Assembly (NCBI GenBank): GCA_029932675.1
Contig: JAOZPP010000029.1
Span: 1 to 36,356 of the forward strand
Direction of reading: 5' to 3'
Length of the DNA stretch: 36,356 nucleotides
Origin: a bacterium
GTDB taxonomy: Bacteria; SM23-81; DAOVCL01
The notes below the pieces were generated by a model. It was not told the origin of the DNA. It saw only the letters and a program-made list of their open reading frames with translations, and did not search any database. Positions 6,850 through 27,262 of this stretch are shown here, piece by piece. The position numbers were made by a program, and so were the translations under genes. Each line of letters begins with the position of its first letter. The stretch's first letter is position 1.

Positions 6850-8391
6850 TTGGCCAGATGGATGGGGAGGATTATCCCTCGGGAAAGTCCCTTTTTGTTC
6901 ATCACTTACCTTCAATTGAGACCTTTAACGAGGCTAATCCCATTTCTTCTCCTCTTCCTTTGGGGAAAAGCGATCTCTGGGGGGTTGGGAGGGAGGTCTA
7001 TCCCCTGGGGGGATCCCACCTATGGGTTGCTCGTTCAACTCAAGCTCCAGGGTCTCTTTCCTGATCTTTCCCCTTCATCCCTTCCTTATACCGAGGAGGA
7101 GATAGCGCAAGGGGTAGAGGATGCCCTCTGGGAGCTACGGATGGGAAAGGTCAAACTTTCCCCTTATTCCCGCAACCTCTTAAGGAAGCTGGAAGAGGAG
7201 TGGGGAATTGAGGAGGAAGGGTGTTCATTCTCCTTCTCTCCTCAGCTCAAATTGGAATCGGGGAGAAAGCGGAAGTCAGAAAACAACTTTTCTTTTACCG
7301 GTGATTTCTCCTTTTCACCTCTGCCTTCTCTTCTCCTCAGCCAAGGGATTAGAGTGGAGGGGGGGAACTGGTACCCCTCCTGGCTCTTAGTTCGCCCCTG
7401 GAGGAAAAACCTTTGGGGATCAACCCCTTATACCTATATCAAATGGGGGTTCAAGGGGGGGTGGCTACTTATGGGCAGGTATCCCCTAAAATGGGGTCCA
7501 TCTCCTGATGTCTCCCTTCTTTTGGGGGATAACTCTCCCTCCTTTGATCAGCTCCAGGTGGGAGTGCAGGTTGGTCGGCTAAGGTTTATCTGCCTTTCCA
7601 CTAAGCTGGATACCTTAGAAGGGGCAAACCGCTATCTCTCCGCTCACCGGATAGAGTTGAGGGCAAGACAGGGATTGTACGTAGGCCTATCTGAGGTGGT
7701 CCTTTATGGGGGGGAGAAAAGGGGGCCTGAGCTCTATTACCTCAATCCCTTGACCATATATTATGGGGAGCAGTTCAACCATAAGGTAGATGATAACATC
7801 CTTCTTGGTGGTGACTTCTCCTGGTATACACCTTGGGGAAGGCTCTATGGAGAGCTTATGGTAGACGACTTCCAATATGACCTGCACAGTGAGCCCCAGC
7901 AAATTGGGCTCAATGGGGGTATAGACTTGGTGACCTCAAGGGGGGTGTGGCTGAACATAGAATATACGAGGGTAAACAATTGGGTATATGGCCAAAATAA
8001 GCCCTGGAATAGATATACCTACTGGGGGAAGGTAATTGGCTGGGAGATGGGCCCAGATGCCGATCAGCTATCCTCAGCATTCCTTTACCCATTGAGCAAA
8101 TCCTTATGGATGAAGGTTTCTATTAGGTTGAGAAGAAAGGGAGAGGGCAGGGTGGAAACCTCCCAAAGCTCCGCCGTGCCCTGGCCGAAAAGTTTCCCCT
8201 CGGGAGTGGTGGAAAGAAATCTCAAGTTGGGTGCGGAGGTTGGTTGCTTGTCTTTGCCCTTTCTCTGGTTCAGGTTTGGGCTTCAGGTCGAAAGGGAGTG
8301 GAACAGAGGGAACATAAAGGGGAAAGGATTTACCTCCCCTGGATTCGAACTTGAACTATCCTATCGGTGGAAGAAGCCAACTACTCTCTAA
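6850..8391 (+). CDS. Outer-membrane beta-barrel protein, capsule assembly Wzi-like
   Basis: This 513-residue protein has a basic start and a hydrophobic segment (about residues 25-43) that fits a signal sequence. A short helical region follows (about 78-120), with an alternating PYT-EEE and LSPYSRNLL-KLEEE pattern. After it comes a long stretch of alternating aromatic and polar residues ending in LELSYRW, typical of outer-membrane barrels. The helical region before the barrel resembles the Wzi-like family, whose members act in capsule or surface polysaccharide attachment. Start choice is uncertain: TTG 6850 or ATG 6862, both without a strong ribosome site. The last 25 bases overlap ispE. No capsule genes are nearby, so the function is inferred from resemblance only. 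Confidence 0.7.
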   Translation: MARWMGRIIPRESPFLFITYLQLRPLTRLIPFLLLFLWGKAISGGLGGRSIPWGDPTYGLLVQLKLQGLFPDLSPSSLPYTEEEIAQGVEDALWELRMGKVKLSPYSRNLLRKLEEEWGIEEEGCSFSFSPQLKLESGRKRKSENNFSFTGDFSFSPLPSLLLSQGIRVEGGNWYPSWLLVRPWRKNLWGSTPYTYIKWGFKGGWLLMGRYPLKWGPSPDVSLLLGDNSPSFDQLQVGVQVGRLRFICLSTKLDTLEGANRYLSAHRIELRARQGLYVGLSEVVLYGGEKRGPELYYLNPLTIYYGEQFNHKVDDNILLGGDFSWYTPWGRLYGELMVDDFQYDLHSEPQQIGLNGGIDLVTSRGVWLNIEYTRVNNWVYGQNKPWNRYTYWGKVIGWEMGPDADQLSSAFLYPLSKSLWMKVSIRLRRKGEGRVETSQSSAVPWPKSFPSGVVERNLKLGAEVGCLSLPFLWFRFGLQVEREWNRGNIKGKGFTSPGFELELSYRWKKPTTL

Positions 8392-9251
8392 ACCTAAACT
8401 CCTGGGCCAAGATTAACCTTGGGCTAAAGATCTTAGGAAAGGTAGGGGCATACCACCGGGTAGAGACCATACTCCAATCCATCGATCTGAAAGATAGGTT
8501 GAGTTTTTCTCCTCAAGGTGAGGAAATGGTTATCCTCTCCTCCCACCCAGGGCTTCCCCAGGGGAAAGAAAACCTCTGTTATCGGGCTTGGAGGGCCCTC
8601 TGTCCAGGGAGGGGGGTAAGGTTAACCATTGAGAAGAGGATCCCAGTGGGGGGTGGGTTAGGAGGAGGAAGCAGCAATGCGGCGACTACCCTTTGGGCCC
8701 TAAATAAGCTCTTTGGCCTTGGCCAGACCAGGGAGGAACTTCTGCATATTGGCTCCCAGATCGGTTCCGACGTCCCCTTTTTTCTTATCGGAGGAACCGT
8801 CCTCTGTTCAGGAAGGGGGGAAATCCTTAAACCTCTCCCTCCCTTACGGGGGGTATATTTCCTCTTGGTTAACCCGGGTTTTGAGGTCTCCACAAGGTGG
8901 GCCTATAGTAGGTGGAGTTTTAGCTTGACAGATATGGACAAATTTATTAGAGTTAAAGACTCTCTGGTTCAGACCGAATCCCAAGAGTTCCCCAGAGAGT
9001 TCCCTAATGACTTGGAGGAGGTGGTAGCCCAAAGATATCCCATTATAAAGCTTGTCAAGGAAAAGCTATACGGCTGCGGGGCCCTGGCAGCCTCCCTAAG
9101 CGGCAGTGGCCCCACGGTTTGGGGTCTCTTTAAGGAGAGAGGGGAGGCAGATGCAGCAGCCGAGGTTCTGTGCAGGGAAGATGGTTGGTGGACAAAGGTC
9201 ACCCACCCCATAAGCTCTGCCCTTCCTGAGGAGGATGAAAATTGGAGATAA
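8367..9251 (+). CDS. ispE: 4-diphosphocytidyl-2-C-methyl-D-erythritol kinase
   Basis: IspE phosphorylates CDP-methylerythritol at the 2-hydroxyl with ATP, in the non-mevalonate isoprenoid pathway. GHMP-kinase hallmarks are present: WAKINLGLKILG near residue 13, the glycine-rich PVGGGLGGGSSNAA loop near 90, SQIGSDVPFF near 130, and a C-terminal SLSGSGPTVW. The length of 294 residues is normal. GTG 8367 lies inside the end of the outer-membrane protein gene, so the two are translationally overlapped. The 3' end overlaps spoVG by 10 bases. Its isoprenoid products are the precursors needed by the prenyl-glyceryl phosphate synthase homologue encoded further downstream. Confidence 0.95.
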   Translation: MEEANYSLNLNSWAKINLGLKILGKVGAYHRVETILQSIDLKDRLSFSPQGEEMVILSSHPGLPQGKENLCYRAWRALCPGRGVRLTIEKRIPVGGGLGGGSSNAATTLWALNKLFGLGQTREELLHIGSQIGSDVPFFLIGGTVLCSGRGEILKPLPPLRGVYFLLVNPGFEVSTRWAYSRWSFSLTDMDKFIRVKDSLVQTESQEFPREFPNDLEEVVAQRYPIIKLVKEKLYGCGALAASLSGSGPTVWGLFKERGEADAAAEVLCREDGWWTKVTHPISSALPEEDENWR

Positions 9252-11909: not shown

Positions 11910-12007
11910 ACTGGGGGTTATTAGAATCTATTTGTTAAAGAAGGTTATCTTCTTTGATGTGGCGGAAATTGACTTACACCTAAGAAAACTTGCCTATGGG
12001 AGGTGAG

Positions 12008-14044
12008 ATGAGCGGTATCATCTATCCGATTTTGGCCAGTTTAGTAGCCTTACTCTTTGTGTTCTACTTGGCCTGGTCTGTGCTGAGGAGGGATGCTGGT
12101 TCCCAAAGGATGAGGGAGATCTCCTTAGCTATCCAGGACGGAGCACGCACATTTTTATTACGGGAATACAGGTATGTAACCTTAGTGGTTATCTTGGTGG
12201 CTATCTTCTTAACCCTGGGGCCATTGTTCGGCCAGAGGGTGAAGGTGAACTGGGAGACGGCTTTGGCCTTCGTAATTGGGGCAATTGCCTCTGGTATAGC
12301 TGGCTGGACAGCTATGTGGGTAGGAACAAGGGCCAATTCCCGCACAGCCCAAGCGGCCCGCTCAGGGCTCAAACCTGCCCTCTCTGTCTCCTTCTCTGGA
12401 GGGGCAACGACAGGGCTCTCCATCGTTGGAGTGGCTCTCTTGGGCCTCTGCGTTGTCTACCTCCTTTTCGGTGGTAAGCCAGTGATCATTAATGGATATG
12501 CTATGGGCGCCTCCCTGATGGCCCTCTTTGCCCGTGCTGGTGGGGGGATCTATACCAAAGGGGCCGATATGGGAGCCGATTTGGTGGGAAAGGTGGAAGA
12601 AGGTATTCCAGAGGATGACCCCAGAAATGCTGCGGTAATTGCTGATAATGTGGGGGATAATGTGGGGGATACCGCTGGCTTGGGGGCAGATCTCTTGGAG
12701 TCCTACGTGGAGTCGATTATCGCCACCATTGCCATTGGGGTGAGTCTCACCATGATCGGCTCAGAGCTCGTCCTCCTTCCCCTCTGGTTGGCCTCCTGGG
12801 GGATAATCTCCTCGATCTTAGGGGTGGTCTGCGTGAAAGCGGTCAGGGGATTAGAGCCCCAAAAGGCCTTGAATATGGGCGTATATATAGCCGCTTTCCT
12901 GATGGCCGTAGGGGGGTTCTTCATTATTAAGGGGATGGGGATAAGCTATGCTGTTAATGCCAGCTCTTATGGGGGGTTGGGCCTCTTCTGGGCCCTTATG
13001 GGTGGTTTAGCCTCGGGCCTGATAATTGGGATGGTGAGTGAGTTCTATACCTCCTCCAAGTATAAACCGGTAAGGAACTTAGCCGGTTCCGCCCGCACAG
13101 GGCCGGCTGTGGTGGTGGTAAATGGATTAGCCTTGGGGATGGGAAGTACCCTCATCCCGGTGGTAGTTATTGCTGGGGCTACCCTCTTGGGGTATAGTTC
13201 CGCTGGGATGTATGGGGTCTCCTTGGCTGCCTTAGGTATGCTCTCCATTTTGGGAATAACCTTGGCCGTTGATTCCTACGGACCGGTAGCCGACAATGCG
13301 GGAGGGATTGCGGAAATGGCTGGTCTTGATCCCCAAGTGAGGAAGATCACCGACAAGCTGGATGCTGTGGGCAATACTACCGCGGCCATTGGCAAGGGGT
13401 TCGCCATCGGCTCTGCTGCCTTTGCTGCCCTGGGGCTGATCACCGCCTACATTGCCACGGCAAATTCAGTCAGCTTAGAGAAGATCTCCTTGCAGCTTAC
13501 CGATCCCACCCTCATTGCAGGGCTTTTGGTGGGCGGGATGATCCCTTATCTTTTCTCCTCCCTTCTGGCTGGGGGAGTGGGAAAAGTGGCCTTCAAAATA
13601 ATAGAGGAGGTGAGGAGGCAATTTAAGGAGATAGAGGGTTTAAGGGAGGGGAAGGCAAAAGCCGATTCCTCCAAGTGCGTTGATATCGCTGCCCGGGGGG
13701 CGATACACAGTATGATGTTTCCGGGAGTTTTGGCCATTCTCATCCCCATTGCCGTGGGCTTCTTATTGGGCCCTGTAGCCTTGGGAGGTCTCTTAGTGGG
13801 GGCTTTGGTCACCGGCCTTGCCCTGGGCATCCAGACGGCCAACACGGGGGCAGCTTTGGACAATGCCAAGAAGTACATCGAGGAGGGGAACTTTGGGGGG
13901 AAGGGAACTGAAGCCCACAAGGCGGCTGTTGTGGGAGATACAGTGGGCGATCCCTTGAAGGATACCCTGGGGCCATCGATCAACATCCTCATCAAGCTGA
14001 TGTCGGTGATCTCCTTGGTCTTGGCCCCGTTGTTTGTCAGGTAA
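12008..14044 (+). CDS. hppA: Membrane-bound ion-pumping pyrophosphatase (K+-dependent type)
   Basis: This integral membrane enzyme couples hydrolysis of pyrophosphate to export of H+ or Na+. It is a 678-residue polytopic protein with many hydrophobic segments. Catalytic motifs are ADMGADLVGKVE, IPEDDPRN, ADNVGDNVGD, the later VDSYGPVADNAGGIAEM, and the C-terminal DTVGDPLKDT. GNTTAAIGKG carries Ala where K+-independent enzymes carry Lys, so it should be K+-dependent. The helix after GLGADLL reads ES-Y-V-ES, with Glu both at the position typical of Na+ pumps and one turn on, at the position typical of plant-type H+ pumps. ATG 12008 follows GGGAGGTGAG. A TTG start six codons upstream lacks a ribosome site. 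Confidence 0.95.
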   Translation: MSGIIYPILASLVALLFVFYLAWSVLRRDAGSQRMREISLAIQDGARTFLLREYRYVTLVVILVAIFLTLGPLFGQRVKVNWETALAFVIGAIASGIAGWTAMWVGTRANSRTAQAARSGLKPALSVSFSGGATTGLSIVGVALLGLCVVYLLFGGKPVIINGYAMGASLMALFARAGGGIYTKGADMGADLVGKVEEGIPEDDPRNAAVIADNVGDNVGDTAGLGADLLESYVESIIATIAIGVSLTMIGSELVLLPLWLASWGIISSILGVVCVKAVRGLEPQKALNMGVYIAAFLMAVGGFFIIKGMGISYAVNASSYGGLGLFWALMGGLASGLIIGMVSEFYTSSKYKPVRNLAGSARTGPAVVVVNGLALGMGSTLIPVVVIAGATLLGYSSAGMYGVSLAALGMLSILGITLAVDSYGPVADNAGGIAEMAGLDPQVRKITDKLDAVGNTTAAIGKGFAIGSAAFAALGLITAYIATANSVSLEKISLQLTDPTLIAGLLVGGMIPYLFSSLLAGGVGKVAFKIIEEVRRQFKEIEGLREGKAKADSSKCVDIAARGAIHSMMFPGVLAILIPIAVGFLLGPVALGGLLVGALVTGLALGIQTANTGAALDNAKKYIEEGNFGGKGTEAHKAAVVGDTVGDPLKDTLGPSINILIKLMSVISLVLAPLFVR

Positions 14045-19280: not shown

Positions 19281-19378
19281 GGAATCAGGTCATCGCAGGC
19301 CCTGGGCAAGAGGGGCATAAAGGTTGGTATCGAAGCGCTGTGCATTTCTTTGCGCCTGGAAATGATAGAGGGGAAAGA

Positions 19379-20608
19379 TTGCAAGCTGAGATTATCGCCA
19401 TTGGGAATGAGCTCTTAAGAGGACAAGTTGCCGAGACTAATTCCAGTTTTTTGGCTCGTTTACTCTCGCAAGCAGGGGTAGAGGTGAACAGGGTGGTAAC
19501 CGTGGGGGATAGCTTAGAGGCGATTATAAGGGAGGTGAAAAGGGCCCTTTCCACCACAGACTTAGTGATTACCACCGGTGGCCTCGGACCGACCGCAGAT
19601 GATCGCACCAGGGAAGCCCTGGCCCAGGCACTAAAGAGGCCTCTGGTCTTTAAAGAGGGTCTTTGGAAAGAAATTAAAGATGGATTGAGGAGAAGGGGAA
19701 TAAACCATTCCCCAGTGAGCCGATCCCAAGCTTTCCTTCCCCAAGGGGCAGTGGGGCTCCCCAACCCCATAGGGATCGCTCCGGGTTTACATATTGAAAT
19801 TAATGGCAGCTATCTCTATGCCCTTCCGGGAGTGCCGGAGGAGATGGAGTCAATGGCGAAGAGGTATCTCCTCCCTAAGCTAAAAGGAAGTCCCCTTCCC
19901 TACCGCGTCTTGCGGACAACGGGAATTCCGGAGTCTGAGATCTACCAAAAGGTAAAGTCCTTAACGAAGTGGCCGAAGATAGAGATAGCCTTCCTCTCCT
20001 CTCCTCTTGGGGTAGACCTAAGGGTAGAGGCATCTCCCAAGGGTGCATCTGCAGATGTCTCTCAAGCAGTGGGGAAGATAGAGGAAATATTGGGGGAGGT
20101 AATCTATGGAGGGGAGGATGAGGGGTTAGAGGAGGTGGTGGGGAAGCTTTTGGTTCAAAGAGGAGAAACCCTTGCTGTGGCTGAATCCTGCACTGGTGGT
20201 CTTATCTGCAGCAGGCTCACCGATATCTCGGGAAGTTCTCGCTATTTTGAGCGGGGCGTGATTAGCTATAGCAACCGGGCGAAGATAGAACTCCTTGGGG
20301 TACCCTCTGAGGTGCTAAAGAAGTTCGGTGCGGTAAGCCCTCAAGTCGCTATAGCTATGGCTGAAGGGGTGAGGAGGGTAGCGGGCACCGATTACGGCCT
20401 TTCCGTTACCGGAATTGCTGGCCCCACTGGGGGGAGCAAGGATAAACCTGTGGGCCTTGTTTATATAGGCTTCGCTCACCGCAATGGATCTTTCTATCAG
20501 AGGTCTCTCTTCGTTGGTTCGCGCCAGTTAAACAAGGAGAGGGCCGCTCAAGCGGCCCTGAACATGGTGCGCCTATTCCTGCAAAAGGGAGATGGAAGAA
20601 ATGATTAG
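19379..20608 (+). CDS. cinA: CinA: nicotinamide-nucleotide amidohydrolase family
   Basis: CinA proteins combine an N-terminal MoCF-like domain (ADP-ribose/NAD-related pyrophosphatase, COG1058) with a C-terminal NMN amidase domain. Seen: AEIIAIGNELLRGQ at the start, ITTGGLGPTADDRTREALA near residue 65, PGVPEEM near 155. In the C-terminal domain are AESCTGGLICSRLT, with the conserved catalytic Ser, and GVISYSNRAK, SVTGIAGPTGG. TTG 19379 is chosen because it gives the conserved N-terminus and follows AGAGGGGAAAG. An open frame to GTG 19340 lacks a ribosome site. It is the first gene after a strong promoter. It overlaps the next gene and lies two genes from recA, the classic cinA-recA neighbourhood. 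Confidence 0.94.
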   Translation: MQAEIIAIGNELLRGQVAETNSSFLARLLSQAGVEVNRVVTVGDSLEAIIREVKRALSTTDLVITTGGLGPTADDRTREALAQALKRPLVFKEGLWKEIKDGLRRRGINHSPVSRSQAFLPQGAVGLPNPIGIAPGLHIEINGSYLYALPGVPEEMESMAKRYLLPKLKGSPLPYRVLRTTGIPESEIYQKVKSLTKWPKIEIAFLSSPLGVDLRVEASPKGASADVSQAVGKIEEILGEVIYGGEDEGLEEVVGKLLVQRGETLAVAESCTGGLICSRLTDISGSSRYFERGVISYSNRAKIELLGVPSEVLKKFGAVSPQVAIAMAEGVRRVAGTDYGLSVTGIAGPTGGSKDKPVGLVYIGFAHRNGSFYQRSLFVGSRQLNKERAAQAALNMVRLFLQKGDGRND

Positions 20609-21164
20609 AACCTTTGTTGCCCTCGATGTTCCCTCTCCAGTTAAGGAAGGGGTCCGAGGGATAATAGCAGAACTGAAGAGGTTAGGGGGAAATATTAAGT
20701 GGGTAAAACCAGAGAATCTCCACTTAACCATTAAGTTCTTAGGAGAGATAGAGGAGGAGACCTTGGAAAGGGTCTATCCAGTAGTGGAAAGATGTGCTGG
20801 GGAAACTCCAGTCTTTTCGTTTTCCCTCTCTGGGGCTGGTCTCTTCCCCGGGCCAAGGAGGCCCCGAGTATTCTGGATTGGGATTAAGGAAGGAGTTGAG
20901 GAACTAGAGTCGCTTTTTAGCTGCTTGGATAGAGGGTTGGAGGCTTTGGGCTTCCCCAGGGAGAGAAGGGGATTCTCCCCCCATCTCACCATAGGCAGGG
21001 CGCGCAGCCCTCAGGGTATGGAAAGGTTGGTTAAAGGGATAGAGGGGATTGAATACAACTCTGGGAAGATTGAGGCATCTTCCTTATTGGTGATGAAGAG
21101 CAGGCTAACCCCCCAGGGACCCATCTATACCCCGCTGAAGGAGTTTAAGTTCAGAGCATGGTAA
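20592..21164 (+). CDS. thpR: RNA 2',3'-cyclic phosphodiesterase (2'-5' RNA ligase family)
   Basis: This 190-residue protein belongs to the 2H phosphoesterase superfamily and is expected to open 2',3'-cyclic phosphates at RNA ends. Both catalytic H-x-T motifs are present: HLTIKFLG near residue 44 and HLTIGRAR near residue 130. RTFVALDVP at the N-terminus is typical. ATG 20592 overlaps cinA by 17 bases, and a second ATG at 20601 would also fit the conserved start. The cinA-thpR-recA order is common in bacteria. Confidence 0.93.
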   Translation: MEEMIRTFVALDVPSPVKEGVRGIIAELKRLGGNIKWVKPENLHLTIKFLGEIEEETLERVYPVVERCAGETPVFSFSLSGAGLFPGPRRPRVFWIGIKEGVEELESLFSCLDRGLEALGFPRERRGFSPHLTIGRARSPQGMERLVKGIEGIEYNSGKIEASSLLVMKSRLTPQGPIYTPLKEFKFRAW

Positions 21165-21376: not shown

Positions 21377-21401
21377 AACTTTAAGAAGGTAGGTGAGGAT
21401 A

Positions 21402-22424
21402 ATGGCTGAGAATTCGTCGCGAGAGAAAGCCCTAAACTTAGCTCTCGCTCAGATTGAGAGGCAATTTGGCCGCGGGGCCATAATGAGGTGGGGAGAGGGG
21501 ACTGGATTGAAGGTCCCGGTTATTCCCACTGGTTCCCTGGCCTTAGACTTCGCTTTAGGGGTGGGGGGAGTCCCCCGGGGGAGGGTGATAGAGATCTTTG
21601 GACCGGAGGCCTCCGGGAAGACTACTTTGGCCTATCACATCATCGCTGAAGCCCAGAAGAGGGGTGGGATAGCTGCCTTCATCGATGCTGAACATGCGGT
21701 GGATGCCAATTATGCTCGCAACTTAGGGGTAGATATAGATAACCTCCTCTTATCCCAACCCGATTTCGGGGAGCAGGCGCTGGAGATAGCCGACACTTTA
21801 GTAAGGAGTGGGGCAGTCGATGTTGTAGTAGTCGACTCGGTGGCCGCCCTCGTTCCCCGCGCGGAGCTGGAGGGAGAGATGGGGGATTCCCATATGGGGT
21901 TGCAGGCCAGACTTATGTCCCAAGCCCTGAGAAAACTTACTGGCACCATAAGCAAATCCCATACCTGCACCATATTCACCAACCAGATAAGGATGAAGAT
22001 AGGCACTATGTGGGGCAACCCGGAGACCACTACGGGTGGGAACGCCCTCAAGTTCTACTCCTCAGTGAGGTTAGACATCAGGAGGGTAGCCTCCATTAAG
22101 GAGAGGGATCAAGTTGTCGGTAATCGCACAAAGGTCAAGGTGGTGAAGAACAAACTTGCCCCTCCCTTCAAAGAGGCCATCTTTGATATAATGTATGGAG
22201 AGGGTATCTCTCGGGAAGGGGACCTCATCGACCTGGGAGTAGAATATGAGGTAATCGAGAAAAGCGGGACTTGGTTCTCCTATCAGGGGGAGAGGTTGGG
22301 GCAGGGAAGGGAAAACGCCAAGGCGTTTCTCAAGGGAAACAAAGAGATAGCCGAGCAGATAGAAAAGAGCCTAAGGGAAAAGCTAGGGCTGGCCGAGGTG
22401 GAGGATAAGCAGCCAGCTTCATAA
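21402..22424 (+). CDS. recA: Recombinase RecA
   Basis: RecA is the ATP-dependent strand-exchange protein of homologous recombination and of the SOS response. The protein has 340 residues. Walker [10 protein letters not shown] is near residue 65, followed by the conserved [11 protein letters not shown], Walker [16 protein letters not shown], loop L1 with [19 protein letters not shown], and [10 protein letters not shown]...ETTTGG of loop L2. ATG 21402 follows AAGGTAGGTGAGG. A GTG three codons earlier sits within the ribosome site itself. The C-terminus is short and charged. It is followed within six bases by recX. Confidence 0.98.
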
Positions 22425-22429
22425 CACAG

Positions 22430-23056
22430 TTGGGAAAGATCACCAAGATCGAGCCCCAGAGGAGAAATAAGACCCGCCGCTCGATTTGGCTCGATGGATG
22501 CTACTCCTTCTCCCTGAGTGAGAGGGTTTTGCTGCAAGCTGGCCTCAGGGTCGGTGATGAAGTCTCCCCGGAGAGGGTAGAGAACTTGATCTCCCTTGAT
22601 CAGAGGGAGAGGGCCAAGGAGATCGCCTTCCGGTATTTGACTTACCGCCCTCGGACGGTGAGGGAGGTGCTTGACAAGCTAAGGGGAAAGGATATACCAA
22701 CTGATATAGCCGAAACGGTGATAGAAGATCTGAAAAGGCTGAAGCTTCTGGATGACCGCCACTTCGCCCGTTCCTGGATAAGTGAAAGGTTGGCTAACCG
22801 ACCGAGCGGGAAGAGGCTCCTCCAGAGGGAATTGAGGCAGAAAGGGGTGGGTGAGGAGCTAATAGAGGAGGCCTTAGAGGAACTCTATCCCCAAGAGGTA
22901 GAGATAGCTAAGGGGCTTTTGCGGAAGAGGATGAGAAGGTTTAAAGGGCTGGAACCACATAAAATGAGGGCGAGGGCTTGGAATTTCTTACTGCGCAGGG
23001 GGTTCTCCCCTCAGACGGCCCAAGATTGTTTAGAGGAGCTCTCCGATGAGATCTGA
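22430..23056 (+). CDS. recX: RecX regulatory protein
   Basis: RecX binds the RecA filament and modulates its activity. The 208-residue protein has the three-helix tandem repeats of the family: RERAKEIAFRYLTYRPRTV, then LKLLDDRHFARSWISERL followed by KRLLQRELRQKGV, and a last repeat ending FSPQTAQDCLEEL. TTG 22430 lies five bases after the recA stop, and the N-terminus (ITKIEPQRRNKTRRSIWLDG) fits the family. The end overlaps alaS by 11 bases. Confidence 0.93.
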   Translation: MGKITKIEPQRRNKTRRSIWLDGCYSFSLSERVLLQAGLRVGDEVSPERVENLISLDQRERAKEIAFRYLTYRPRTVREVLDKLRGKDIPTDIAETVIEDLKRLKLLDDRHFARSWISERLANRPSGKRLLQRELRQKGVGEELIEEALEELYPQEVEIAKGLLRKRMRRFKGLEPHKMRARAWNFLLRRGFSPQTAQDCLEELSDEI

Positions 23057-25610
23057 AGAAATAAGAAAGGGTTTTTTGGAATATTTCCGGCAAAGGGAAC
23101 ATAAGGTGGTCCCCAGTTCTCCCCTCATCCCGCAAGACGATCCCACCCTCCTTTTTACTAATGCGGGAATGAATCAGTTCAAGGGGGTCCTCCTGGGGAA
23201 AGAGGAGAGGGGATTTAAGAGGGCAGCCTCCTGTCAGAAGTGCCTGCGAGCCAGCGGCAAACACAACGACTTGGAGGAAGTGGGGAAGGATGGTTTTCAC
23301 CACACCTTCTTCGAGATGTTGGGAAACTGGTCTTTTGGGGACTACTATAAGAGGGAGGCCATAATCTATGCCTGGGAATACATCACCAACGAACTGGCCC
23401 TCCCTCCTGATAGGCTTTGGATTTCGGTATATGAGGAGGATGATGAATCCTTCCAGATCTGGAGGAAAACCATTGGCATCCCCGAGGAGAGGATAGCTAA
23501 GTTAGGAAAGAGGGATAATTTCTGGATGATGGGTGAGGTTGGCCCCTGTGGCCCTTGTTCTGAGATCTACTATGACTTCCAGCCGGAAGAAGGTAAAGGG
23601 TTTAATCCCCATAGTGAACGCTTCAGTGAGATCTGGAATCTGGTTTTCATCCAGTTCAATCGGGAGGAGTCGGGGAAGCACTCTCCCCTGCCATTTAGAA
23701 GCGTGGATACCGGAATGGGGTTGGAGAGGGTAGCCGCAGTAACCCAAGGGGTGAGGTCGAACTATCAGACGGACCTCTTTCTCCCCTTGATGGATTGGTT
23801 AGAGGAGGCTTCCCCCAACGGTAACCTCTCTTCTAAAAGGGTGATCTCTGACCATATCAGAGCCCTCTCCTTTCCTATTGCTGAAGGGGTTATCCCCTCT
23901 AATGAGGGCCGGGGGTATGTGATCAGGAGGATACTCCGCAGGGCAGCAAGACATGGGAGACTTCTCGGCCTAAGGAAGCCATTCCTATATAAGCTCTCCA
24001 GCCTCCTGGTCGACCTCATGGGCGGAGTTTACCCTGAACTTATCGCCAAGAGGGAACACATAGCTCTGGTAATTAAAGCAGAGGAAGAGAGGTTTGGGGA
24101 AACCTTGGACCTGGGGATGGAGCTCTTCTCCCGGGTGGCCAGAAGGGTCAAAGGTGAGGGGGGAGACAGGATTAGCGGCCAGGATGCCTTTAAGCTCTAT
24201 GATACCTATGGGTTCCCCTTGGACCTCATTCAGGTTATGGCCGAGGAGGAGGGCCTGAAGGTGGATCTGGAGGGGTTCAATTCCCTGATGAAAGAGCAGA
24301 GAGAAAGGGCAAGGAAGGGAGCAAAATTTGGGCATGGGGTGCAGGTTTCCGTAGAGCCCATACCTCAAACCGAGTTTTTGGGTTACCAGACCTTACAAGT
24401 TGAAGGGAAGATAATCTGGCTAAAGGGAGAAGGGGAGGAAATCGAAGTGGCTTTGGATAAGACCCCCTTCTATGCAGAACAGGGTGGGCAGGTGGGGGAC
24501 CGGGGGAGAATCACGGCCGCTGGTCTGGAGATCTTGGTGGAGGATACCACAAAAAGAGATGGGGCCACTATTCACCGAGGTAAATTAGTTAAGGGCCGGC
24601 CCCAAGAGGGAATGGTCGTAACTGCTCGGGTTGATGAGGACTGGAGGAGGGGTGTAGAACGAAGTCACACGGCGACTCATCTTCTCCAGGCTGCTTTGAG
24701 AAGGACCTTGGGGGGGCACATCCACCAATCGGGCTCCTTGGTGGAGCCGGACAGGCTTAGGTTTGATTTCACCCATTTTAAAGGCTTGGACCAAGAACAG
24801 ATCCGAGTTGTTGAATCGCTGGTCAACGAAAAAATTAGGGAAGATATAAAAGTGGAGACTTACTTAACCTCGTTGGAGGAGGCCAAAGCCCAAGGGGCTA
24901 TTGCCCTCTTCGGGGAGAAGTATGGGGAGAAGGTGAGGGTGGTGCAGGTGGGCGATTTCAGTAGGGAGCTCTGTGGAGGAACCCACCTACAAAGCACTGG
25001 ACAGATCGGGTATTTTAGGCTGGAAAAGGAAGAGGGAATTGCTGCGGGGGTAAGGAGAATAGAAGCCTCGGTTGGGGAGAAGGCATGGAGGTTGGCTCGC
25101 CAGGAGAAAGAATTAGTGGGTAGACTCTCTGCAGTTCTCAAGGCCGATCCTGCCGAACTGGAGGAGAAGATAAGAAAACTTCTACAAGAAAGGACAACCC
25201 TCCAAAAGGAAGCCCAGAAGGTCCGTGGTGTTTCTTACCGTAAGCTTATGGAAGAGGTGGTAAAGAGGGCTGTGGTGGTCAATGGAGTAAAAGTTGCCCA
25301 GGGAAAGGTTGAGGCCAGGAACAGAGAGGAACTCCTCCAATTGGCCGATGCCCTGAGGGATGAATTGGGCTCAGGGGTAGGGCTATTGGGGACAACCCTG
25401 GAGGGTAAACCCACCCTTCTCCTTGTGGTAACCAAGGATTTGGTCGCCGCAAAAGGATTGAAGGCGGGGGAACTAATCAGCAAGGTTGCCTCCTTGATGG
25501 GTGGAAGGGGTGGGGGAAACCCATATCTTGCCCAGGCTGGGGGGGGTGATAGCTCTAAGCTCGATGGGATCATTAAGGGATTCCCCTCTATCTTAAAGGA
25601 AAGCCTCTGA
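23046..25610 (+). CDS. alaS: Alanine-tRNA ligase
   Basis: AlaRS attaches alanine to tRNA-Ala and edits mischarged Ser/Gly. The 854-residue length is near the usual 870-880. The aminoacylation core is at the N-terminus (FTNAGMNQFKGVLLG, HHTFFEMLGNWSFGDY). The editing domain has the zinc-binding HTATHLLQAALR near residue 542 and CGGTHLQSTGQIG near 640. The C-terminal dimerisation domain contains GGRGGGNPYLAQAGG. ATG 23046 lies inside recX. The stop overlaps the start of the next gene (TGATG), so the lipid gene is translationally coupled to it. No T-box or other leader is possible at this position. Confidence 0.98.
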   Translation: MRSEEIRKGFLEYFRQREHKVVPSSPLIPQDDPTLLFTNAGMNQFKGVLLGKEERGFKRAASCQKCLRASGKHNDLEEVGKDGFHHTFFEMLGNWSFGDYYKREAIIYAWEYITNELALPPDRLWISVYEEDDESFQIWRKTIGIPEERIAKLGKRDNFWMMGEVGPCGPCSEIYYDFQPEEGKGFNPHSERFSEIWNLVFIQFNREESGKHSPLPFRSVDTGMGLERVAAVTQGVRSNYQTDLFLPLMDWLEEASPNGNLSSKRVISDHIRALSFPIAEGVIPSNEGRGYVIRRILRRAARHGRLLGLRKPFLYKLSSLLVDLMGGVYPELIAKREHIALVIKAEEERFGETLDLGMELFSRVARRVKGEGGDRISGQDAFKLYDTYGFPLDLIQVMAEEEGLKVDLEGFNSLMKEQRERARKGAKFGHGVQVSVEPIPQTEFLGYQTLQVEGKIIWLKGEGEEIEVALDKTPFYAEQGGQVGDRGRITAAGLEILVEDTTKRDGATIHRGKLVKGRPQEGMVVTARVDEDWRRGVERSHTATHLLQAALRRTLGGHIHQSGSLVEPDRLRFDFTHFKGLDQEQIRVVESLVNEKIREDIKVETYLTSLEEAKAQGAIALFGEKYGEKVRVVQVGDFSRELCGGTHLQSTGQIGYFRLEKEEGIAAGVRRIEASVGEKAWRLARQEKELVGRLSAVLKADPAELEEKIRKLLQERTTLQKEAQKVRGVSYRKLMEEVVKRAVVVNGVKVAQGKVEARNREELLQLADALRDELGSGVGLLGTTLEGKPTLLLVVTKDLVAAKGLKAGELISKVASLMGGRGGGNPYLAQAGGGDSSKLDGIIKGFPSILKESL

Positions 25611-26377
25611 TGACTGTCTTCGCCAGGCTTCTTGATACAAGAAAGCGGAAGGGGGCAGGACTATGGGCGTTACTTGATCCGGACAGATCCTCAGGGAAGG
25701 GGATCGTTGAGCTTGCCCGTAGGTGCGAAAGGGCTGATGTGGACGCCCTCCTTGTGGGAAGTAGCCTCCTCCTCTCCTCAAAACTTGAGGAGGCGCTCAA
25801 GCTGATAAAGGGAGAGGTTTCCTTACCTGTGATCATCTTCCCGGGCAATGCCATTCAGATCTCCCGCTATGCCGATGCTATCCTCTATCTCAGCCTGATC
25901 AGTGGAAGGAACCCTGACCTCCTCATTGGGGAACAGGTGAAGGCCGCGCCTCTAATCAGGGAGTATGGGATAGAGCCCATATCCACCGGCTATATGATAA
26001 TTGATTCCGGAAGTCCCACAGCGGTCCAATTTATGTCCAACACCCAGCCCCTTCCCCAAACCAAACCCGATTTGGCTAAGGCCCATGCCTTAGCCGCTCA
26101 ATATTTGGGAATGAAGCTGCTCTACTTAGAGGCTGGAAGTGGAGCTAAGAATTCTGTTTCGGAGGGGATAATAGGGGAGGTAAAGGGCTATGTCGATCTG
26201 CCCCTCATTGTGGGAGGGGGGATAAAGACCCCTGAGGAGGCGGCTCGAAAGGTGGAGGCCGGTGCCGACTTTGTGGTTATAGGAAATGCCTTCGAGAAGA
26301 CTGGAAGCCCGGAGAGGATAGAGGCCTTCTCCCAGGCAGTCCATCGGGCTGGGGCAGATAAGATGTCAAAACCATAG
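25610..26377 (+). CDS. Geranylgeranylglyceryl phosphate synthase homologue (GGGPS/PcrB family)
   Basis: GGGPS joins glycerol-1-phosphate to an isoprenoid diphosphate through an ether bond, the first committed step of archaeal membrane lipid synthesis. The Firmicutes relative PcrB makes heptaprenylglyceryl phosphate. The 255-residue TIM barrel has LLDPDRS near residue 21, GRNPDLLIGEQVKAAP near 97, the STGYMIIDSGSPTAVQFMSNT segment near 122, LEAGSGA near 175, and the phosphate-binding IVGGGIKTPEEA near 202. The pattern is that of group II enzymes, closest in my memory to Bacteroidetes/FCB-type sequences rather than PcrB. ATG 25610 overlaps the alaS stop by one base. No UbiA prenyltransferase or glycerol-1-phosphate dehydrogenase is in the window, so full ether-lipid synthesis is inference. 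Confidence 0.92.
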   Translation: MTVFARLLDTRKRKGAGLWALLDPDRSSGKGIVELARRCERADVDALLVGSSLLLSSKLEEALKLIKGEVSLPVIIFPGNAIQISRYADAILYLSLISGRNPDLLIGEQVKAAPLIREYGIEPISTGYMIIDSGSPTAVQFMSNTQPLPQTKPDLAKAHALAAQYLGMKLLYLEAGSGAKNSVSEGIIGEVKGYVDLPLIVGGGIKTPEEAARKVEAGADFVVIGNAFEKTGSPERIEAFSQAVHRAGADKMSKP

Positions 26378-26421: not shown

Positions 26422-26727
26422 ATGAAACCTGAATTCAAGCTTTGTAATTGTCCCCTTGAATCTTGGGAGGTAATTGTCGTAGATAGGGATGGGCAATGTG
26501 AGGACAGGAGCACAATTTACTACCACTGTGATGAATGCGGTGAAGATTATGCAATACTTGATTTTCACACAGGTGAAATTCTCTATCTCAACCCAAAGTT
26601 GAAAGGGACAAAAGAACACCTCAATATCGAGTACCTTAAAAATAAGGTCTTAGAAAAAACCAGGTTGGGAATTGGAATTAAATCTTCAATCCCAATTGAG
26701 AGTAACGGCGAGGATACCCCGATGTAG
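26422..26727 (+). CDS. Hypothetical protein with paired cysteines
   Basis: This 101-residue protein is not one I recognise. It has C-x-C near residue 8 and CDEC near residue 36, which together could bind zinc. A beta-rich middle (YYHCDECGEDYAILDFHTGEILYLNP) and a charged helix (KEHLNIEYLKNKVLEK) follow. It starts 44 bases after the GGGPS gene; a CCCTTT-CAT-AAAGGG hairpin lies in the gap. Its composition is more AT-rich than the preceding genes, which suggests it belongs to the accessory island. Confidence 0.5.
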   Translation: MKPEFKLCNCPLESWEVIVVDRDGQCEDRSTIYYHCDECGEDYAILDFHTGEILYLNPKLKGTKEHLNIEYLKNKVLEKTRLGIGIKSSIPIESNGEDTPM

Positions 26728-26848: not shown

Positions 26849-27262
26849 ATGAGATATATTCCCTATCCTAAGAGAAATTTTATAATTATCTCAATTCTTA
26901 TCATCGGTTCGGAGACAGCATTGTTCAAGCTACCTACCACCCTATTGGGTTGGATACTGCGCATACCTCTAATTATCACCATATTCTGGCTATATTCCGC
27001 ATTGAATCATCTAACTGTTCTTACTCTATATAACGTTGACTTTTTTCAAGCAATGTTGTGGATCAACGGTGTTTTTGCAGTAAATGCACTAAACATCATA
27101 TATGAGTTTCTTCCAGGAGTTGTAAATTATGTCCTTAGCTTTATTATGGTCTCGGTTTACTGGTACCTCCTGAGACAAGCAGGCAAGTATAACAAACTCG
27201 TTGAAGAAGGTTATGATCCAGAATTCGATGGAGAAGAATTCGCCAAAAAAATGAAAGAATAA
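26849..27262 (+). CDS. Hypothetical membrane protein, four predicted helices
   Basis: This 137-residue protein has four hydrophobic segments at about 9-27, 32-52, 66-88 and 91-109, then an acidic, Lys-rich tail (EEGYDPEFDGEEFAKKMKE) likely in the cytoplasm. I do not recognise a family. ATG 26849 is preceded by GAGGTG at normal spacing. The gene is AT-rich relative to the core genes and stands alone, with no clear promoter or terminator. Confidence 0.5.
   Translation: MRYIPYPKRNFIIISILIIGSETALFKLPTTLLGWILRIPLIITIFWLYSALNHLTVLTLYNVDFFQAMLWINGVFAVNALNIIYEFLPGVVNYVLSFIMVSVYWYLLRQAGKYNKLVEEGYDPEFDGEEFAKKMKE

Follow-up and report, generated by a model that had tools for sequence, protein, structure and literature searches.

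Why does a bacterium carry, coupled to its alanine--tRNA ligase gene alaS, an archaeal-type enzyme for the first ether bond in membrane lipids, and could the enzyme serve such a lipid here? The question is raised by a stretch of 36,356 nucleotides (the window; contig JAOZPP010000029.1 of GenBank assembly GCA_029932675.1), in which a complete open reading frame (ORF) for a prenylglyceryl-phosphate synthase (GGGPS) overlaps the alaS stop codon. The first-pass annotation had described this ORF as a group II-like homologue behind an ordinary bacterial recA-recX-alaS run, had noted ispE in the same window and had suggested a prenyl-ether lipid fed by the methylerythritol phosphate (MEP) pathway. 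Its coordinates and the overlap proved exact, and family scans upheld ispE and each gene of the run. On the strength of partner genes found elsewhere in the genome, we consider it probable that the organism encodes an archaeal-type ether lipid pathway, in which a working group II GGGPS would be followed by diether formation through a UbiA-family protein (UbiA1) and saturation by a geranylgeranyl reductase (GGR), yielding an archaeol-like phospholipid. The genome is a draft of 3.03 Mb in 116 contigs (97% complete, 0.24% contamination), and its nearest named relative (81% identity) is a metagenome-assembled genome (MAG) of Candidatus Zixiibacteriota, which NCBI places in the Fibrobacteres-Chlorobi-Bacteroidetes (FCB) group. 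It was searched family by family with curated profiles. Comparisons within the phylum cover four genomes, the window genome among them; 80 related GGGPS loci, most from FCB-related phyla, were kept, and the GGGPS alignment and tree comprise 86 rows. Published work is considered here as represented by the main texts of open-access PMC papers.

Judged by profiles, solved relatives, predicted fold and residues, the window protein is a group II GGGPS, the profile and PDB scores taking the place of a wider phylogeny that would include group I GGGPS and PcrB. It reached 283 bits against NF003198 (curated cut-off 247) and 205 bits against TIGR01769 (geranylgeranylglyceryl phosphate (GGGP) model; curated cut-off 161.6), and matched PF01884 with an E-value of 2.4e-43 in the search of the window genome. 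Among PDB entries, group II structures scored 149-187 bits (FjGGGPS of F. johnsoniae 186, MtGGGPS of M. thermautotrophicus 183, Thermoplasma 149-151), whereas AfGGGPS of A. fulgidus, a group I enzyme, scored 31 and PcrB 26-28. An AlphaFold model built from 21 homologues adopts a (beta/alpha)8 fold (mean predicted local distance difference test score 89.5), with template modelling (TM) scores of 0.87-0.94 to the best-matching structures of group II (4jej, 4mm1_A, 5nez_A) and of roughly 0.7-0.83 to group I and PcrB structures. PcrB, the heptaprenylglyceryl phosphate synthase of Bacillus and Geobacillus, shares superfamily, fold and glycerol-1-phosphate (G1P) pocket with the window protein, but we reject membership in that family, given 23.7 bits on the PcrB equivalog NF003197 (cut-off 260), the low bit scores and 16-24% identity to PcrB structures, and the lower TM scores.

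The substrate-binding positions, checked against the list in a review (PMC9385802), gave a similar picture, none of the residues examined being lost. Neither of the two outcomes that the first-pass annotation would have taken as a refutation, a place within PcrB or the loss of such residues, was therefore found. Residues for Mg2+ (D23, S52; D25 and S54 in MtGGGPS), G1P (Y128, Y172, E174; Y134, Y178 and E180 in MtGGGPS) and phosphate (S177, G202, G203, G225, N226) are present, and D23, S52 and Y128 are invariant across all 86 aligned rows. According to the same review, group II carries a conserved Thr at the position of AfGGGPS Asn216, and the Fj and Mt enzymes do have Thr there, unlike the window protein with Asn226. 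Since Asn occupies this position in 76 of the 86 rows, the Thr rule fails for most bacterial members found here, and we do not treat Asn226 as excluding. Bacterial group IIb enzymes (FjGGGPS, PDB 4jej; Ca. Cloacimonetes GGGPS) match the window protein in subfamily, fold, active site and FCB hosts, and the proposed chain-length limiter of FjGGGPS, I90, is the same residue as I84 here; the window gene differs in being coupled to alaS and not to the gene for digeranylgeranylglyceryl phosphate synthase (DGGGPS), the second-ether enzyme. Transfer of geranylgeranyl diphosphate (GGPP) to G1P would be the activity expected of a group II GGGPS.

The first-pass annotation had proposed a search for a UbiA-family DGGGPS, and three UbiA proteins were found in the window genome. 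For UbiA1, MjDGGGPS is the only strong solved relative; the match spans the full length, and the next PDB match reaches 29 bits. UbiA1 residues D70, D74, Y129, K134, D183, D186 and D190 align with D66, D70, Y125, K130, D180, D183 and D187 of MjDGGGPS, so that Asp-rich motifs 1 and 3 and the Y-x-K motif are kept, whereas Asn62 of MjDGGGPS is replaced by Asp. All four genomes of the phylum encode UbiA1, in each case near dtd and maf, and in the window genome it adjoins lipid A acyltransferase-family and heptosyltransferase-family genes, neighbours which by their family assignments point to an ordinary Gram-negative envelope. GGR, which scored 257 bits against a digeranylgeranylglycerophospholipid reductase structure (3oz2), and GGGPS, intact throughout, likewise have matches over their cut-offs in 4/4 genomes.

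The other two UbiA proteins were rejected as DGGGPS candidates. UbiA2 (L088 8691-9719; homologues in L015, L020, L029, L036, L037, L050 and L052) has no strongly matching solved structure, and a search of its sequence did not recover the pattern of Asp-rich motifs; it is possibly part of the same lipid pathway. The third is a 575-aa fusion of IspH to a UbiA-type domain (contig C75, L089 8179-9906; homologues L115 and L116 in phylum relatives), whose UbiA half has no PDB match and appears devoid of the usual first Asp motif, none being found. IspH-UbiA fusions are known from Desulfobacterales (PMC4746011), and the present finding adds the window's phylum.

Do these genes keep company elsewhere? 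In 38 of 44 Poribacteria loci, profiles built from the window genome's own proteins placed a UbiA1 homologue on the strand of GGGPS and upstream of it, in most cases at a distance of about 1.3 kb. Seven Poribacteria loci have UbiA2 directly preceding the UbiA1 homologue, five have a GGR homologue directly upstream of GGGPS, and two Cloacimonadota have a prenyl synthase and UbiA1 ahead of GGGPS. This linkage supports the predicted assignments of UbiA1 and GGR. Co-localisation of GGGPS and DGGGPS in bacteria has been described as seemingly restricted to Cloacimonetes (Villanueva 2020, PMC7852524), a paper whose main text does not mention Poribacteria; the Poribacteria loci extend it to a further lineage. 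Physical linkage in both phyla makes the archaeal-lipid proposal testable.

In the pathway we propose, the MEP pathway, together with a single IspA-type synthase, would supply the precursors, and GGGPS would join the prenyl diphosphate to the C3 hydroxyl of G1P. UbiA1 would then add the second prenyl ether, and saturation of the chains by GGR would lead to an archaeol-like diether phospholipid, produced alongside the usual lipids of a Gram-negative envelope; the order of the steps and the stereochemistry of the product are predictions of the same kind. No match to PF01864, the family of the CDP-archaeol synthase CarS, was found in the window genome. Because CarS is absent, the head group would probably be completed by putative bacterial CDP-alcohol enzymes, and bacterial CdsA can stand in for CarS (PMC7852524). 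According to the same source, Cloacimonetes GGGPS makes GGGP in vitro and, together with DGGGPS in E. coli, gives phosphatidylglycerol-archaeol. With partner genes in the same genome (a DGGGPS-type UbiA, GGR and a candidate glycerol-1-phosphate dehydrogenase (G1PDH)), the earlier suggestion of a prenyl-ether lipid is stronger than it was from the window alone, and the lipid itself is still a predicted one.

Several observations weigh against this reconstruction. The pathway genes are scattered over the window genome (contigs C99, C8, C89, C104 and C109). UbiA1 scored 176 bits against the NCBI equivalog model NF009521, below its cut-off of 296, and we therefore call it DGGGPS-type and not DGGGPS; the Cloacimonadota homologue beside GGGPS also falls below this cut-off (180 bits), and the profile scores of the two proteins are alike (186/176 bits for UbiA1, 182/180 bits for the homologue). 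The G1PDH candidate scored 336 bits over residues 4-347 against the EgsA model NF002022, under the strict NCBI equivalog cut-off of 413, and no EgsA-type G1PDH was found in the three phylum relatives, all of which carry GGGPS. Finally, the sole trans-prenyl synthase (PF00348, IspA-type, contig C109, beside dxs) resembles a farnesyl diphosphate (FPP) synthase, with 338 bits on FPPsyn (cut-off 275) and 321 on CrtE (cut-off 460), and it carries Tyr five positions ahead of the first Asp-rich motif, a feature shared by its counterparts in the other three genomes. Tyr at this position in the bacterial IspA family points to the FPP (C15) type. Type II GGPP synthases have small residues there (PMC9385802), and the Cloacimonadota prenyl synthase adjoining GGGPS has Ala. 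Of the suggested supply, ispE and the MEP/IspA genes are in place; given the FPP-type Tyr, the chains may be C20 or C15. In the congener (G001), a predicted protein begins in NUDIX-like fashion and has a region weakly resembling polyprenyl synthases (L134 1204-2625); no counterpart turned up in the window genome.

The G1PDH candidate raises the question of where G1P would come from. Its metal ligands D170, H249 and H265 are kept, and it scored 174 bits against a glycerol-1-phosphate dehydrogenase structure (4rgq). Its gene, however, immediately follows one for a nucleotidyltransferase in a cluster devoted to the synthesis and export of polysaccharide (L086 8820-10609). A survey of 37 further GGGPS-carrying bacterial genomes returned one full-length EgsA-type match, also in an exopolysaccharide cluster (L126 1348-2415), and partial, weaker matches in three Poribacteria. 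The presence of EgsA-like G1PDH in such clusters of two distant GGGPS-carrying bacteria hints at a G1P-derived surface polymer. The search for a G1PDH turned up an EgsA-like protein, and its location in a polysaccharide cluster, together with its absence from the GGGPS-carrying phylum relatives, makes a role in lipid synthesis, and with it the supply of G1P, tentative.

A variant of the proposed pathway follows from this, which we take seriously without favouring it: the lipid may be built on sn-glycerol-3-phosphate (G3P), or on G1P from another source, while G1PDH serves exopolysaccharide synthesis by providing a G1P-derived substituent that the adjacent nucleotidyltransferase activates. The two versions are not exclusive, and the likelihoods we give them overlap. 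Both G1PDH gene locations and the relatives without the enzyme speak for the variant, as does the acceptance of G3P by Cloacimonetes GGGPS (PMC7852524); yet GGGPS, sharing the cytoplasm, would have access to whatever G1P is formed, and the exopolysaccharide role assumes a substrate for a nucleotidyltransferase that is itself putative.

We think it unlikely that GGGPS makes a mono-prenyl-glycerol that is dephosphorylated and acts as a minor carrier instead of a bulk lipid, with UbiA1 and GGR serving other isoprenoids. Such a role has a precedent in Bacillus, where acetylated heptaprenylglycerol is a carrier of this sort, and in B. subtilis the acetyl groups for lipoprotein N-acetylation are carried by the product of PcrB (PMC12345273); proteins of the GGR and UbiA families act on many substrates. 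Against this stand MjDGGGPS as the one strong solved relative of UbiA1, with its motifs kept, and the clusters of UbiA1 and GGR with GGGPS in Poribacteria and of UbiA1 with GGGPS in Cloacimonadota, which a mono-prenyl product would leave unexplained. Very improbable, in our estimation, is a GGGPS that runs in reverse or as a salvage enzyme, degrading archaeal lipids from the surroundings: this has been proposed for FCB members without G1PDH (PMC6431249), but GGGPS is conserved here alongside the second-ether enzyme and the reductase, and the proposed chemistry, in which the prenyl diphosphate ionises and G1P attacks (PMC9385802), favours synthesis. Archaeal contamination or an assembly error, to which a fragmented draft genome might be open, can be dismissed as next to impossible, since the 36-kb contig holds ordinary bacterial genes, with GGGPS joined by overlap to a bacterial alaS, independent genomes of a congener and other Zixibacteria conserve this gene order, and the GGGPS tree follows bacterial phyla.

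We next consider why GGGPS should sit behind alaS. The A of its ATG is the last base of the alaS TGA (CCTCTGATGACT); within alaS, just ahead of the start, there is a ribosome site resembling AAAGGA. A scan for promoters and terminators gave counts no higher than in shuffled sequences. Among the loci examined, only the window and the congener locus L006 show the overlap; in other Zixibacteria GGGPS still follows alaS, but about 80-220 nt separate the two, and this order recurs in KSB1 and Chitinispirillales, several loci having the whole cinA-thpR-recA-recX-alaS run. With the overlap confined to the genus and GGGPS placed elsewhere in other lineages, a functional tie between GGGPS and alaS is not favoured, and GGGPS probably sits in this conserved run for expression.

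Table 1. Locations of the GGGPS locus features and of the candidate partner genes (positions are those of the window unless a contig is named).
Feature	Location	Strand	Details
cinA	19340-20608		same conserved run as thpR
thpR (RNA 2',3'-cyclic phosphodiesterase)	20592..21164	+	part of conserved run
recA	21393..22424	+	TIGR02012, 563 bits
recX	22430..23056	+	family scan; overlaps alaS
alaS (alanine--tRNA ligase)	23046..25610	+	TIGR00344, 954 bits; overlaps GGGPS
TGATG, alaS stop/GGGPS start overlap	25608..25612	+	CCTCTGATGACT
GGGPS (prenylglyceryl-phosphate synthase), group II by profiles and fold	25610..26377	+	255 aa, ATG start, complete ORF
ispE (MEP pathway kinase, isoprenoid precursor supply)	8367..9251	+	TIGR00154, 205 bits (cut-off 138.7)
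UbiA1, DGGGPS-type	contig C8, L087 9106-9969		MjDGGGPS (PDB 6m31) match, 125 bits
GGR (geranylgeranyl reductase)	contig C89, L090 1489-2667		TIGR02032, 207-208 bits (cut-off 158.8)
EgsA-like G1PDH	contig C104, L086 9554-10609		NF002022, full length

In the 86-row tree, a single branch sets apart each of the labelled phyla Bacteroidota, Poribacteria and Cloacimonadota. Zixiibacteriota are grouped weakly (59/38), the window and its congener are joined at 100/99, support is weak at depth and several long branches occur. As a gene tree, this fits largely vertical inheritance of GGGPS. A bolder extension, which we regard as improbable though worth stating, is that GGGPS, DGGGPS, GGR and UbiA2 form an ancient, vertically inherited archaeal-type lipid pathway of FCB-related bacteria, with an anatomy of its own: its genes would lie together in Poribacteria and apart in the window's phylum, and there the FPP-type nature of the sole trans-prenyl synthase makes C15 farnesyl chains conceivable. 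If true, the membrane would contain farnesyl ethers or be mixed, and would resemble neither archaeol nor the heptaprenyl-glycerol of Bacillus. In a Micrarchaeota MAG (L060 6916-8705), an EgsA-type G1PDH gene is the immediate neighbour of a GGGPS gene that clusters close to bacterial ones, by transfer or through a binning error.

Archaeal-type lipids in FCB bacteria have already been proposed: GGGPS and DGGGPS were reported from all 12 FCB phyla surveyed, Zixibacteria among them (Coleman 2019, PMC6431249), and such lipids were put forward for the FCB group and Ca. Cloacimonetes (Villanueva 2020, PMC7852524). The gene set described in these papers agrees with ours in GGGPS, a DGGGPS-like UbiA, GGR, the MEP pathway and the absence of CarS. 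It differs in that G1PDH was not found in Cloacimonetes MAGs, which have two prenyl synthases (PMC7852524), whereas the window genome has an EgsA-like G1PDH and one IspA-type synthase. What appears new within the open-access literature is an EgsA-like G1PDH alongside these genes in a single genome, the gene clusters of Poribacteria, the UbiA2 that accompanies them, and the linkage to alaS across phyla. One near-complete bacterial genome holds GGGPS, a DGGGPS-type UbiA, the reductase and an EgsA-like G1PDH together, and bacteria that naturally mix archaeal ether and bacterial ester lipids would bear directly on the origin of the lipid divide.

Elsewhere in the window, a sodium-translocating membrane pyrophosphatase is encoded at 11990-14044 (859 bits; curated cut-off 546). 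Downstream of GGGPS lie two small ORFs (26422-26727 and 26849-27262) without Pfam or NCBIfam matches, the first of which is kept in the congener (67% identity, L006).

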